The notes beneath the pieces are model-generated. The model did not search any database, was not told where the DNA came from, and saw only the letters and a list, made by a program, of their open reading frames with translations. 64,000 nt of DNA from Hyphomicrobiales bacterium. Lineage in GTDB: Bacteria; Pseudomonadota; Alphaproteobacteria; Rhizobiales; Rhizobiaceae. Where the stretch lies: the NCBI GenBank assembly GCA_900471815.1, contig UICE01000009.1, forward strand, positions 62,001-126,000. The letters are read 5' to 3'. Numbering within the stretch: the stretch's first letter is position 1; every line of letters begins with the position of its first letter. Positions 13,209 through 55,542 of this stretch are shown one piece after another. The position numbers and the translations under genes are program-made.

Positions 13209-13418
13209 ATGAGCACTGGAACAGTAAAGTGGTTCAATTCCACAAAGGGCTTCGGCTTCATTCAACCTGATGACGGTTCGGCAGACGTGTTCGTTCACAT
13301 CTCCGCAGTTGAGCGCGCTGGTATGCGCAGCCTCAATGACGGTCAGAAGATCAGCTTCGAATTGGTCCGTGACAACAAGTCCGGCAAGATGACTGCTGAT
13401 CAGCTTCAGGCTGGTTGA
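13209..13418 (+). CDS. CspA-family cold-shock protein
   Basis: 69 residues from the ATG at 13209 (GAAAGGG upstream), the usual length of the family. Both RNA-binding motifs are present: RNP1 KGFGFI and RNP2 VFVHIS, on the OB-fold beginning [14 protein letters not shown]. It binds single-stranded RNA/DNA and acts as an RNA chaperone in the cytoplasm. The long leader suggests post-transcriptional control. A terminator hairpin lies 66 bases downstream. Which csp paralogue this is cannot be told. Confidence 0.96.
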
Positions 13419-13834
13419 TTATAATTCGTCTTCGCGGTCTTTGACCACGGATGTACTGGCACTGATAGCAAAGATGAATTTGAGAAGGTCGGGTTTTCCC
13501 GGCCTTTTATTTTGCCTGGATTTCTGGCGGGCTTATAGCCACGGTCGGCAGACTTTGTTCAACCGTCATTGCCTCACGCAGAATTTGCGGTCACATCCGC
13601 GATGGACAGGTTTATGAACCCAAGCGTCTCGCCAGCTTTGCACCGTGTTGCCCCACTTCAACGCGCTTGACGCCGCAAACTCTGGGCATCCTGGGAAAAG
13701 GCGGCATTCTCCATGACATTTCAGCGCAAGCACCAAGAAAACACTGGAAAGACTGCGTTCTAACCCACAAGGTACGATTCGGTTTGACAGCCTGCTTTTC
13801 GCGGCTGATGTGTGGTTCGAAGGAGTTCCCATTC
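13419..13834. other. Intergenic region between csp and dadA
   Basis: 416 bases. It holds the csp terminator at 13485-13512. Near the right end is a perfect -35 hexamer TTGACA (13784-13789) with only a poor -10 candidate 17 bases on. The dadA frame is open through part of this region, but that translation shows no dehydrogenase similarity and lacks a ribosome site. Nothing else is recognised. Confidence 0.5.
13485..13512 (+). terminator. Intrinsic terminator after the cold-shock gene
   Basis: AAGGTCGGG and CCCGGCCTT form a 9-bp stem with one G-U pair around a TTTT loop, followed by TTATTTTG. Confidence 0.8.
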
Positions 13835-52352: not shown

Positions 52353-55271
52353 TCAGGCATCAAGTTTTCCCAACTTCGCCAGTTCATGTAGCGCCGCTGC
52401 ATCCCGCGCCGATACATCAGGATAGGCCGGATCTGATCCAACATCATGTGTGTATCGCCATGACCGTGCGCATTTTGTGCCGGTTGCCCGTTGCGATACG
52501 ACCGCAACGCCTTTGACGTCATCAGCAACAAAGGCATCTGCTGGCGCTGCTCCGTCCGTGATGGTTATGGCACTGGTGATGCATATCTCGGCCATATCAA
52601 GACCCTTCACCGCTTCGAACAATTCAGAATCGTTGACGAAAACCAGCGGGGCAGCCTCAAGTGATGAACCCAACGTCTTCTTGGCGCGCTCCAACTCCAG
52701 CGCACCCGTAACTACGCGGCGAACATCGCGCACCTTGCGCCACTTTGCGGCCAGCGCTTCGTTCTTCCACTCTTTTGGCGTGTCCCTGAACTGCTCCAGA
52801 TGAACAGAAACGGCATTCTTGTGCAGATCAAGCCATGCTTCCTCCGTTGTAAATGGCAGCATGGGAGCCAGCCAAGTCACGATACGGTCGAACAGATGCC
52901 TGACAACTTGCAGTGCAGCTTTCCGCTTGATGCTGGAAGGCGCATCGCAATAGAGTGCGTCTTTGCGGATATCGAAATAGAATGCTGACAATTCCACAGT
53001 GAGGAAATCGATCAATGCGCGCGTGATCCGCTTGAATTCGAAGGCATCATAGCCCGAACGCACAAGTTCATCGAGTTCCGCGAGTCGATGCAGCATTAGC
53101 TGCTCGAGTTCTGGCATATCCGCATAGGCAACTTCATCGCCTTCGTCATGAGCCAAAGTCCCTAGCATCCAACGGATCGTATTACGCAGCTTGCGGTATG
53201 AGTCGATATTTGTCTGGATGATGTTTTTACCCAGACGTTGATCTTCCCAATAATCGGTTGTCATGACCCAAAGGCGAAGGATGTCTGCCCCAGAATCCTT
53301 GATGACATCCTGCGGCGTGACAGTATTGCCGAGCGACTTCGACATCTTGCGCCCCTCTTCATCCATGGTGAAGCCATGGGTGACAAGAGTATTATATGGA
53401 GCGCGTCCGCGTGTGCCGCAGCTTTCAAGCAAAGACGAATGGAACCAGCCGCGATGTTGATCGGAACCTTCGAGGTAAACATCCGCTGGCCATTTCAGAT
53501 CAGGGCGATCCTCGAGAGTGAAGACATGGGTCGAGCCTGAATCAAACCAGACGTCGAGAATATCGCGTACTTGTACCCAGGGTTCATTGGCTTTTTCGCC
53601 AAGGAACCGCTCACGGGCACTTTCGGCAAACCAGGCGTCAGCGCCTTCCTGCTCAAAGGCCTCAAGAATGCGGGCGTTGACCGCTTCATCCTTCAAGACA
53701 TTGCCATCTTCGTCGGCAAAAACGCAGATTGGCACGCCCCAGGCGCGTTGGCGCGAAAGCACCCAATCGGGACGGTCCTCAATCATTGCACGCAAGCGGT
53801 TTTGCCCACCAGCAGGGACGAAACGTGTCTCGTCGATGGCGGCAAGAGCGCGCGAACGCAATGTCGTCTGATCGCCAAGATCTTTGTCCATATAGACAAA
53901 CCATTGCGGCGTATTGCGGAAAATGACCGGCTTTTTCGAACGCCACGAATGCGGATAAGAGTGTTTGATACGACCGCGTGCAAACAGCATGCCGCGATTG
54001 ATCAGCTCTTCAATAACAGCCTTGTTGGCATCGCCCTTCTTGCCATTATCGTCGATGACGCGCGCGGCACCTCCTTCACGGTCCGGCCCAAATCCCGGTG
54101 CATCCTTGGTGTAGTAACCCGCATCATCAACGGTGAAGGGGATTGCCGAGGAAATACCGCGTGCTTCAAGATCGCTGCGGGCATCCATCCACGCATCGAA
54201 ATCCTCACGACCATGGCCGGGCGCTGTATGGACGAAGCCTGTCCCTGCATCGTCGGTTACGTGATCCCCGCCAAGCATCGGCACTGCAAATTCATAACCA
54301 CCGCCAAAACCTTTGAACGGGTGGGAGAGAGCGATGCCTGCAAACTCATCGGCTGTTATGGCTCTGATACGCTTGAAAGTCAGCTTGGCTTTCGTGGCCG
54401 AATCTTCCGCCAACGCATCTGCAAAAATCAACATCTCGCCCGGACGCGGGCCGAAATCATTCTCTGCCGTTTCAACCTCGTAAAGTCCGTAGGCTACGCG
54501 AGGTGAGTAGTTGACCGCCCTATTTCCAGGAATGGTCCAAGGGGTCGTCGTCCAGATGACGACATAGGCCGATGCGAGATCACCTTCGCCATTGACGATC
54601 GGAAACTTGACCCAGATCGTATCGCTTTCAACGTCGGCATATTCCACTTCGGCCTCGGCCAAAGCGGTGCGCTCAACAACCGACCACATGACAGGCTTGG
54701 AACCGCGATAGAGCTGGTCCGACATGGCGAACTTCAGGAGTTCCCCAGCAATGCGGCTTTCTGCATGAAATGCCATCGTTGTGTAGGGATTTTCGAAATC
54801 GCCTTCGATACCAAGCCGTTTGAACTCGGCAGATTGGACCTTGATCCAGTTGGCGGCAAATTCGCGGCATTCCTTGCGGAACTCGTTGATCGGCACCTGA
54901 TCCTTGTCTTTGCCTTTGGCGCGGTACTGTTCCTCGATCTTCCATTCGATTGGCAGACCGTGGCAATCCCAACCCGGGACATAATTGGAATTGTAACCGC
55001 GCATCTGGAAGGAGCGCGTGATGACGTCCTTGAGAATTTTGTTCAGTGCATGGCCGATATGGATATTGCCATTGGCATAGGGAGGACCGTCATGCAGCAC
55101 ATAAAGCGGACGATCTTTGCCGTCTTCACGCAGCTTCCGATAAAGGTCCATGTCCTGCCAGCGCTGGACGAATTCCGGTTCCTTGGCTGGCAAACCAGCA
55201 CGCATCGGAAAATCCGTCTGCGGCAGATATAGAGTTTTCGAATAGTCGATTGGCTTAGGCGTATCGTTCAT
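52353..55271 (-). CDS. ileS: Isoleucyl-tRNA synthetase
   Basis: 972 residues, class I synthetase. HIGH signature [19 protein letters not shown] near residue 65 and KMSKS in [11 protein letters not shown] near residue 620; the CP1 editing domain holds [14 protein letters not shown]. Charges tRNA-Ile and hydrolyses Val-tRNA-Ile. Upstream lies an isoleucine-rich leader peptide and an attenuator-like set of hairpins. The synthetase belongs to the same minus-strand row as HAD, ribF and mipA; a terminator follows. Confidence 0.98.
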
Positions 55272-55329
55272 TTTTCTTGGCTTTTCTTGGGCCCGCGCGT
55301 TATCGCTGCAAGCAAGGATTTGAAGAAAT

Positions 55330-55351
55330 CGAAATAAGGCGCAAAGGCGCC
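55330..55351 (-). terminator. Attenuator terminator hairpin before ileS
   Basis: On the minus strand GGCGC-CUUU-GCGCC (55351 to 55338) forms a 5-bp GC stem, followed directly by UUAUUUCGAUUUCUU. It stops 67 bases before the ileS ATG and would prematurely end ileS transcripts. Confidence 0.55.
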
Positions 55352-55407
55352 GCCCGGACCTTCAACACCACGAAGCAAATAGCTTCAGGTTCAGGTGAAG
55401 GCCGGGC
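55338..55407 (-). promoter_or_regulatory. Candidate ileS transcription attenuator
   Basis: Three pairings are possible on the minus-strand RNA. 1:2 is GCCCGGCCUUCA (55407-55396) with UGAAGG-U-CCGGGC (55364-55352), 12 bp with one bulge, enclosing a GAAGC/GCUUC hairpin. 2:3 is GGUGUUGAAGG (55369-55359) with CCUUUGCGCC (55347-55338), 10 pairs with one bulge and three G-U. 3:4 is the terminator hairpin. 1:2 and 2:3 share region 2, and 2:3 and 3:4 share region 3, so they exclude one another as in ribosome-controlled attenuators. Confidence 0.6.
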
Positions 55408-55465
55408 CAGTAATTCGTATCTGAATCGGTACGGACTTGGGAAAAGCCCCGCAAACGGTTTTCAT
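55391..55465 (-). CDS. ileS leader peptide (24 codons)
   Basis: ATG at 55465, TGA at 55393-55391. The peptide is MKTVCGAFPKSVP, then IQIRI (codons ATT, CAG, ATA, CGA, ATT at 55426-55412), then TGPAFT. Three Ile codons in five lie directly upstream of region 1 of the attenuator, whose left arm overlaps the last codons. No strong Shine-Dalgarno precedes the ATG; an in-frame GTG at 55486 could add seven residues. Expected role: cis-acting sensor of charged tRNA-Ile. Not a stable functional product. Confidence 0.55.
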   Translation of the reverse strand: MKTVCGAFPKSVPIQIRITGPAFT

Positions 55466-55542
55466 GACCGCGCTTTTAGCAACCACGCTCGCGAGAATAA
55501 AGGGGCAGATGCAATAAACTTCGTCTGTATCTGCCATAATGC

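Follow-up and report, generated by a model that had tools for sequence, protein, structure and literature searches.

The isoleucyl-tRNA synthetase gene, ileS, in the 64-kb stretch of DNA analysed here (the window) is preceded by a 24-codon isoleucine leader and a hairpin, P1; on comparison with its relatives, this element is real, conserved and old. We think it likely that the leader, whose mRNA appears to lack a 5' untranslated region, and P1 together place ileS under the control of tRNA-Ile charging, as one member of a family of codon-addressed sensors of branched-chain amino acids. The main interest lies in this family and in the change of specificity that a single codon appears to bring about within it.

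An isoleucine leader and a hairpin upstream of ileS

The window encodes a 972-amino-acid isoleucyl-tRNA synthetase (ileS, 52353..55271, minus strand), identified by NCBIfam TIGR00392 with 799 bits against a cut-off of 621. Between ileS and the gene upstream, which encodes MipA by Pfam, lies a leader ORF of 24 codons and a stop, MKTVCGAFPKSVPIQIRITGPAFT (55391..55465, minus strand), whose frame is conserved. Just as the original prediction described, codons 14-18 of this frame read Ile-Gln-Ile-Arg-Ile; the window leader has three Ile codons. One of these, ATA (55418..55420, minus strand), stands immediately 5' of the core CGAATTA (55417-55411, minus strand), which comprises a conserved Arg codon and an Ile specifier codon, CGA-ATT (55412..55417, minus strand), the pair that is swapped to CGA-CTT before leuA. 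Downstream, hairpin P1 (55352..55407, minus strand) joins GCCCGGCCTTCA (55407-55396) to TGAAGGTCCGGGC (55364-55352), folding with 12 pairs and one bulged U, and within it lie the stop codon of the leader and a smaller hairpin. This is the 12-bp pairing of regions 1 and 2 (1:2) that had been proposed; it folds as stated, and is conserved and covarying.

A second, terminator-like hairpin, P2 (3:4; GGCGC-CTTT-GCGCC, 55338..55351, minus strand), has five GC pairs and a four-base loop and is directly followed by TTATTTCG, with a U-rich tail, TTATTTCGAT, at 55328..55337 (minus strand). Because the 1.1-kb region holds two terminator-like sites where 1.4 are expected by chance, P2 alone is not significant. 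On the other side of the leader, a -10-like box, CTAAAA (55474..55479, minus strand), has its nearest base 9 before the ATG, and a -35-like sequence picked by eye, CTTTATTC (55495..55502, minus strand), is separated from it by a 16-base spacer; CTTTATTC was seen again, also by eye, in many Hyphomicrobiales relatives. No Rfam family matched over the leader at gathering thresholds, and at E up to 10 there were two unrelated families far below their cut-offs; the Rfam models of the T-box sequence and specifier loop likewise gave no match there. A covariance model of the element, R1, recovered the ileS copy in its own genome at E 3.7e-5, and the other matches in that genome were dismissed as noise (next-best E 0.86).

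Conservation of the leader

The core CGA-ATT-A was found in 76 of 81 Hyphomicrobiales ileS upstream regions (the window and 80 named loci), and an upstream ATG was in frame with it in 75 of these 76. All 19 genomes of the window's genus carry the leader. The original prediction had proposed looking in relatives for conserved Ile codons and for covariation in the three stems: Ile codons are kept, and hairpin 1:2 covaries, with a score that 0 of 500 shuffles reached (see below). The five regions that lack the core and the one that lacks an ATG (L067) all come from Bartonella. In that genus the exact core or the hairpin is lost at six of eight loci (core altered or hairpin broken in L053, L056, L058, L063, L067 and L069; L021 and L025 intact), and some of its members seem to be losing the leader.

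Across the class, we inspected 59 ileS upstream regions, hand-picked for family spread from the best matches listed rather than drawn at random, with L107 taken twice; 27 have the exact core, three have variants and in 29 no leader was seen. The variants are ATC in L094, ATT with an altered next base in L137 and a missing CGA in L127. Exact CGAATTA in L085 and L115 was judged to be chance and left out, as by eye it falls within an upstream frame similar to ribF. With E up to 0.1, R1 had matches in 143 of the 387 class genomes, 104 of them with E 0.001 or less; these E-values are per genome, and about 39 of the 143 matches could be chance. In a phylum sample of 299 genomes, whose share from outside the class is not stated, 65 had matches at E up to 0.01, and 64 of these are Alphaproteobacteria, the one from outside the class matching at E 0.0088. 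The most Ile-rich form seen occurs in L128 and L129, which belong to one family (L126 is close): five Ile codons in six positions, AIIIRIISPAL.

Reading frame, codon use and start of the leader

Frame and codon use were counted in 102 sequences with the exact CGAATTA, 75 from Hyphomicrobiales and 27 from elsewhere; L085 and L115 were omitted, as was L067, which has a broken hairpin and no ATG. An ATG open to the core is present in frames 0, 1 and 2 in 102, 7 and 23 sequences, respectively, and an in-frame stop within P1 in 101, 5 and 22; 68 sequences have this stop at codon +10 and 29 at +7 or +8. The short leader ORF is thus under frame selection of the kind found in ribosome-mediated attenuators. 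Because of the frame, the in-frame stop inside P1 and the covariation, we take the leader ORF to be very probably translated.

Isoleucine is concentrated near the core, at 47 of 98 codons at position -1, 35 of 96 at -3 and 51 of 102 at +2, versus 34 of 444 over positions -8 to -4. The exact-motif anchor fixes codon +1 as ATT and inflates the seeming invariance of CGA and ATT. Position -1 lies outside the anchor, and ATA makes up 34 of its 47 Ile codons. Within ileS genes, ATA and ATT account for 2.7% and 13.8% of Ile codons, and CGA for 1.7% of Arg codons; given how scarce CGA and the ATA favored at -1 are there, rare codons cluster at the box. Leaders with one candidate ATG (57) contain one to five Ile codons, and 5 of the 14 such leaders from outside Hyphomicrobiales contain a single one.

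Among leaders in which only one ATG qualifies as the start, a -10-like hexamer starting with TA ends 6-10 bases 5' of the ATG in 43/43 from Hyphomicrobiales, 93% of 14 from elsewhere and 88% of 8 before leuA; repeating the scan at eight shifted positions gave 7-42%, 7-14% and 0-50%, respectively. TTGAC was present upstream in all six leuA leaders inspected (6/6). Since the -10-like box sits 6-10 bases before the ATG, the leader mRNA would be leaderless or nearly so; a -10 box right before the start codon, with no Shine-Dalgarno sequence, is the sequence arrangement of such mRNAs. The lack of a Shine-Dalgarno sequence had been counted as a weak point of the prediction. Such sequences are indeed scarce (1/43 in Hyphomicrobiales, 0/14 in others and 1/9 in leuA leaders), but this is no weakness, as the predicted leaderless start would account for their absence.

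Conservation and covariation of P1

The P1 arm CCCGG begins 11 bases past the C of CGA, outside the anchor motif, in 98 of 102 rows (CCCGA in 3, CTCGG in 1), and the 3' end of P1 is CCGGG in 93 and TCGGG in 7. The base of the hairpin is therefore nearly invariant, and covariation is found in the pairs above it. A MAFFT alignment of 24 sequences gave a covariation score of 0.316, versus 0.195 (sd 0.023) after shuffling and a slid maximum of 0.182; in 62 model-fitted sequences it was 0.262 versus 0.152, with 0/500 shuffles reaching it, all of these scores being inflated by relatedness and model fitting. Two-sided changes affected four pairs in the 24-sequence alignment, which is not beyond shuffles (170/500), and five pairs in the 62 sequences (58/500 shuffles).

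P1 was also considered as a general terminator and rejected: it is terminator-like in 9/50 regions of other Hyphomicrobiales, 1/17 of the Mesorhizobium group, 2/27 other regions and 0/8 Phyllobacterium, Brucella-like and Bartonella regions. Some Rhizobium loci have a U-run 3' of P1.

A leader family with exchangeable specifier codons

The layout shared by the family is CGA, a specifier codon, A, four bases and CCCGG...CCGGG. Its ATT version precedes ileS, a gene for an ACT-like protein, or ilvA or cimA operons. Judged by the start of the downstream protein, 24 of the first 30 model matches precede ileS and six do not. We then hand-picked, among the matches listed, 40 further sites as likely non-ileS; three proved to precede ileS, 33 adjoin a small ACT-like ORF, two a threonine-dehydratase-like gene, one leuA and one an MbnB-type gene. 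The last of these (L237) was judged to be chance. The ACT-like family, which thus makes up 33 of the 37 non-ileS picked sites, consists of proteins of about 100 residues (for example L171:1131-1448). Nineteen of the 33 ORFs are in A3, the 20-protein alignment from which the profile was made, and 14 are outside it; L201, L202 and L205 coincide with L171, L178 and L191. The members that were scanned singly gave no match in Pfam or NCBIfam with E of 0.001 or less. Outside matches of the family are weak, with ACT_5 in 5/20 members (best E 0.0036) and the four best PDB matches, all to small subunits of acetolactate synthase, at E 0.32-0.5; with caution, we call this uncharacterised small-protein family ACT-like. 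Downstream of the ACT-like gene lie ilvA in L183 (TIGR01124, above cut-off), and a citramalate synthase gene in L215 (TIGR00977, above cut-off) and, by resemblance, in L227. As for the threonine-dehydratase-like genes that follow the leader directly, that of L204 matches families of this enzyme below their cut-offs, and that of L207 is assigned by resemblance. In L202, L204, L207, G026, G136, G217 and G375, tandem Ile leaders about 180-210 bases apart precede an ACT-like or a threonine-dehydratase-like gene.

A leader with CGA-CTT in place of CGA-ATT precedes leuA at L236, where LeuA was identified by NCBIfam. A class-wide search for CGABTTA, in which the first base of the specifier is not A, found 27 places (25 distinct ones), spread over 24 of the 374 genomes. 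As a control, the pattern in reverse gives 25 places, so that the evidence for a Leu version is the association with leuA and not the number of matches. LeuA is encoded downstream of 17 of the 20 distinct CGACTT sites and of none of the five CGAGTT or CGATTT sites; these LeuA proteins are 66-100% identical to that of L236, 100% being the same site (L259). The codons before the box change accordingly with the regulated gene, Ile being enriched at ileS and Leu at leuA. At codons -6 to -1, Leu occupies 42/102 positions in leuA leaders versus 71/612 in ileS leaders (p ~1e-11, uncorrected for relatedness, which makes Fisher tests too optimistic), and Ile 7/102 versus 131/612. From these features, the ileS and leuA versions look like a single sensor in which one codon decides the amino acid. 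The CGA-codon box, the leader family and its Leu version all go beyond what the original prediction described.

A search for other specifiers with CGANNNANNNNCCCGGN{5,34}CCGGG in 21 genomes gave many matches; by eye, only those with ATT and CTT had both hairpin and stop, and no Trp, Thr, His, Phe or Cys version was seen. L254 and L255, from two genomes of one genus, have a CGA-GTT (Val) box before ACT-like genes, and one of the two has a CGA-CTT box 48 bases upstream of CGA-GTT. The leuA gene of the window's own genome (L271) has no CGACTT box. About 180-295 bases upstream of the LeuA match there is a Leu-rich ORF ending FLLPLLLDLIGDRRAR, followed by what appears by eye to be a GC-rich inverted repeat; this is perhaps a different leucine leader.

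At the ACT-like sites the end of the hairpin is near +34, and 24/31 loci have an ATG in the gene's frame at +74 to +83, leaving little room for P2; several have an SD-like GGAG by eye. The leader ORF runs beyond the ATG of the gene in 14/31 (stop at +90 to +111), a geometry that looks like translational coupling. Such geometry at ACT-like genes suggests that the box and P1 form a sensor to which different outputs can be attached.

Terminator and alternative folds between P1 and ileS

Terminator-like sites between the core and ileS are enriched in the clade of the window, where 15 of 23 regions have one versus 4.1 expected: 4/4 of Phyllobacterium type, 2/2 Brucella-like and 9/17 of the Mesorhizobium group. 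There is no enrichment in other Hyphomicrobiales (12/50 versus 8.1 expected), other Alphaproteobacteria (5/27 versus 2.7) or leuA leaders (5/17 versus 3.2), and neither of two Bartonella regions has such a site. The GC hairpin and U-rich run that had been proposed as a terminator are present in the window, and sites of this kind are enriched in its clade but not in the other lineages compared.

In a simple occlusion model of folding, the ribosome was represented as a mask over the 5' part of the RNA, with positions counted from the C of CGA, such that a mask to +15 represents AUU in the A site. In the window, the probability of P2 was 1.0 in the free RNA, 0.95 at +15, 0.92 at +18, 0.78 at +21 and 0.14 at +24. 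The alternative pairing of regions 2 and 3 (2:3) exists in the window and dominates only when the mask reaches about +24; P2 would be lost only with a ribosome past the Ile codon or at the stop. For the genus, the median probability of 3:4 was 0.96 free, 0.83 at +15, 0.64 at +18 and 0.04 at +21, and for the Brucella-like pair it was 0.88 or more up to +27. P2 was retained at +15 in 13 of 16 representatives. In L018, from Mesorhizobium, the probability of 3:4 fell from 0.86 in the free RNA to 0.08 with masks of +12 to +15; for L145 and L158 the automatically chosen stem was absent already from the free RNA. Because P2 persists at +15 in most representatives, the model suggests that the 2:3 pairing is possible, but mostly not where an Ile-starved ribosome would stand.

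How the leader might be read

These results bear directly on the classical three-state attenuator that was originally proposed, in which a stall at the Ile codons would free region 2 for region 3 and so break the 3:4 terminator. The 2:3 fold of the window, the enrichment of 3:4 with its U-rich tail in the clade and the behavior of L018 are all consistent with such a switch. However, 3:4 survives a ribosome on the Ile codon in the window, in the genus as a whole and in the Brucella-like pair, and a ribosome at the stop codon would break up 3:4, an effect opposite to the one required unless the ribosome is released quickly. We therefore regard this switch as doubtful, and the attenuation mechanism of the original prediction as partly supported: its 2:3 fold exists as an alternative and is not the favored one with a ribosome on the Ile codon. 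The same Ile sensor could instead act through Rho-dependent termination or translational control, with no intrinsic terminator. The coupling geometry at the ACT-like sites and the lack of terminator enrichment in leuA leaders make this a serious possibility, if short of an even chance, whereas the clade-specific enrichment of P2 with a U-rich tail argues against it.

Two further explanations seem unlikely. Both ileS and leuA leaders conserve the peptide R-[IL]-x-x-P-[AV] around the box, and it might arrest the ribosome as a nascent chain, but the CCCGG arm of the hairpin forces most of this peptide, the residue after the Pro varies with the hairpin between Ala, Val, Ile and Thr, and the Ile/Leu swap tracks the downstream gene, which makes nascent-chain arrest improbable. 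That the RNA is read by a protein, for example IleRS repressing its own mRNA, and that the ORF is incidental seems to us highly improbable: the nucleotides of CGAATTA and CCCGG/CCGGG are themselves conserved, as would suit such an element, but it has no place for the reading frame, for a stop inside the hairpin or for the codon swap to CTT before leuA.

Control of ileS by Ile-tRNA charging is, on our analysis, the likeliest function of the leader and P1. The promoter-like boxes suggest that the transcript starts at or beside the AUG of the 24-codon leader. A ribosome would then read the cluster of rare Ile codons ending in CGA-AUU-A, four bases 5' of the CCCGG of P1. When charged tRNA-Ile is scarce, it would pause at AUU, its leading edge resting on the base of P1; when charged tRNA-Ile is plentiful, it would enter P1, terminate and leave, and P1 would close. 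The state of P1 would set the amount of mRNA that reaches ileS, most likely through termination at P2 in the clade of the window and, because P2 is not general, by some other route elsewhere. The core would act as a branched-chain amino-acid sensor, with AUU serving ileS, the ACT-like protein and ilvA/cimA, and CUU serving leuA.

CGA is read by I:A wobble and AUU by G:U wobble. The box may therefore be a built-in slow step, with I:A wobble in the P site followed by G:U wobble in the A site; if so, small drops in charging could be felt with few control codons. The family also offers a natural case for asking why the rare CGA and U-ending codons persist at a putative stall site. More broadly, and with chances that we put at a little below even, Alphaproteobacteria may own a transferable, codon-addressed ribosome sensor, the CGA-NUU-A-N4-CCCGG hairpin, that is plugged into terminator or coupling outputs according to lineage. 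In such a sensor, one base of one codon would set the amino acid, AUU for Ile, CUU for leuA and perhaps GUU for Val, and it would be a ribosome-read counterpart of the T-box. This natural one-codon change of specificity is directly testable.

Relation to known systems

Amino-acid operons of the trp, his and ilv type are controlled by ribosome-mediated attenuators. The leaders described here share with them the amino-acid codons in a leader ORF, a hairpin over the end of that ORF and a pathway gene downstream; unlike them, they have a single fixed CGA-codon-A box at an unvarying distance from a hairpin whose sequence is conserved, a predicted leaderless start, no general terminator and a specifier that is swapped between genes. 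In T-boxes, a single specifier codon determines the amino acid, the same design serves synthetase and biosynthesis genes, and the RNA binds tRNA directly, without a ribosome. The single specifier codon and the mixture of synthetase and biosynthesis genes are thus common to both systems, but the T-box is a tRNA-binding RNA, whereas the present element has an ORF and is without an Rfam match. Work by Vitreschak from 2004 may touch on ilv or leu leaders in Alphaproteobacteria. As far as we searched, control of synthetases in Alphaproteobacteria is little described compared with T-boxes, of which ileS examples are reported in Actinobacteria (PMC1262725); leader genes in bacteria are the subject of PMC4833913.

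The original prediction knew of no ileS attenuator in this group. This needs qualifying: an ileS leader CDS, CCNA_03934, is annotated in Caulobacter crescentus and receives a passing mention, as a negative control, in a ribosome-profiling study, which also refers to the ilvBN leader of Caulobacter as a ribosome-mediated attenuator (PMC4117421, in part). CCNA_03934 resembles the leader described here in being a small ORF before ileS in an alphaproteobacterium. Also similar is the uORFC-8-2 motif, a cysS attenuator in Rhodobacterales whose uORF has Cys codons (PMC8632094, in the part consulted). It too concerns an alphaproteobacterial synthetase gene, a uORF with codons for the cognate amino acid and a proposed attenuation, but its tandem Cys codons are inside the first stem and it has a U-run in all cases. 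A leaderless leader ORF, as predicted here, is known in a rhizobium from trpL of Sinorhizobium meliloti, an attenuator that differs in concerning Trp and trpE and in yielding the sRNA rnTrpL (rnTrpL/peTrpL; PMC10117765, in part). The term "ileS" is absent from the main texts of PMC2965389 and PMC1273637, and among the papers listed on ileS, leuA and branched-chain leaders, no title or abstract opening describes the CGA-codon-box family. Defined by sequence, this family links ileS, leuA, ilvA, cimA and the ACT-like protein across many alphaproteobacterial families.

Elsewhere in the 64-kb window, the sole Rfam match at gathering is ar35, an alphaproteobacterial sRNA, at 13386-13513 on the plus strand (59.2 bits, gathering threshold 45).
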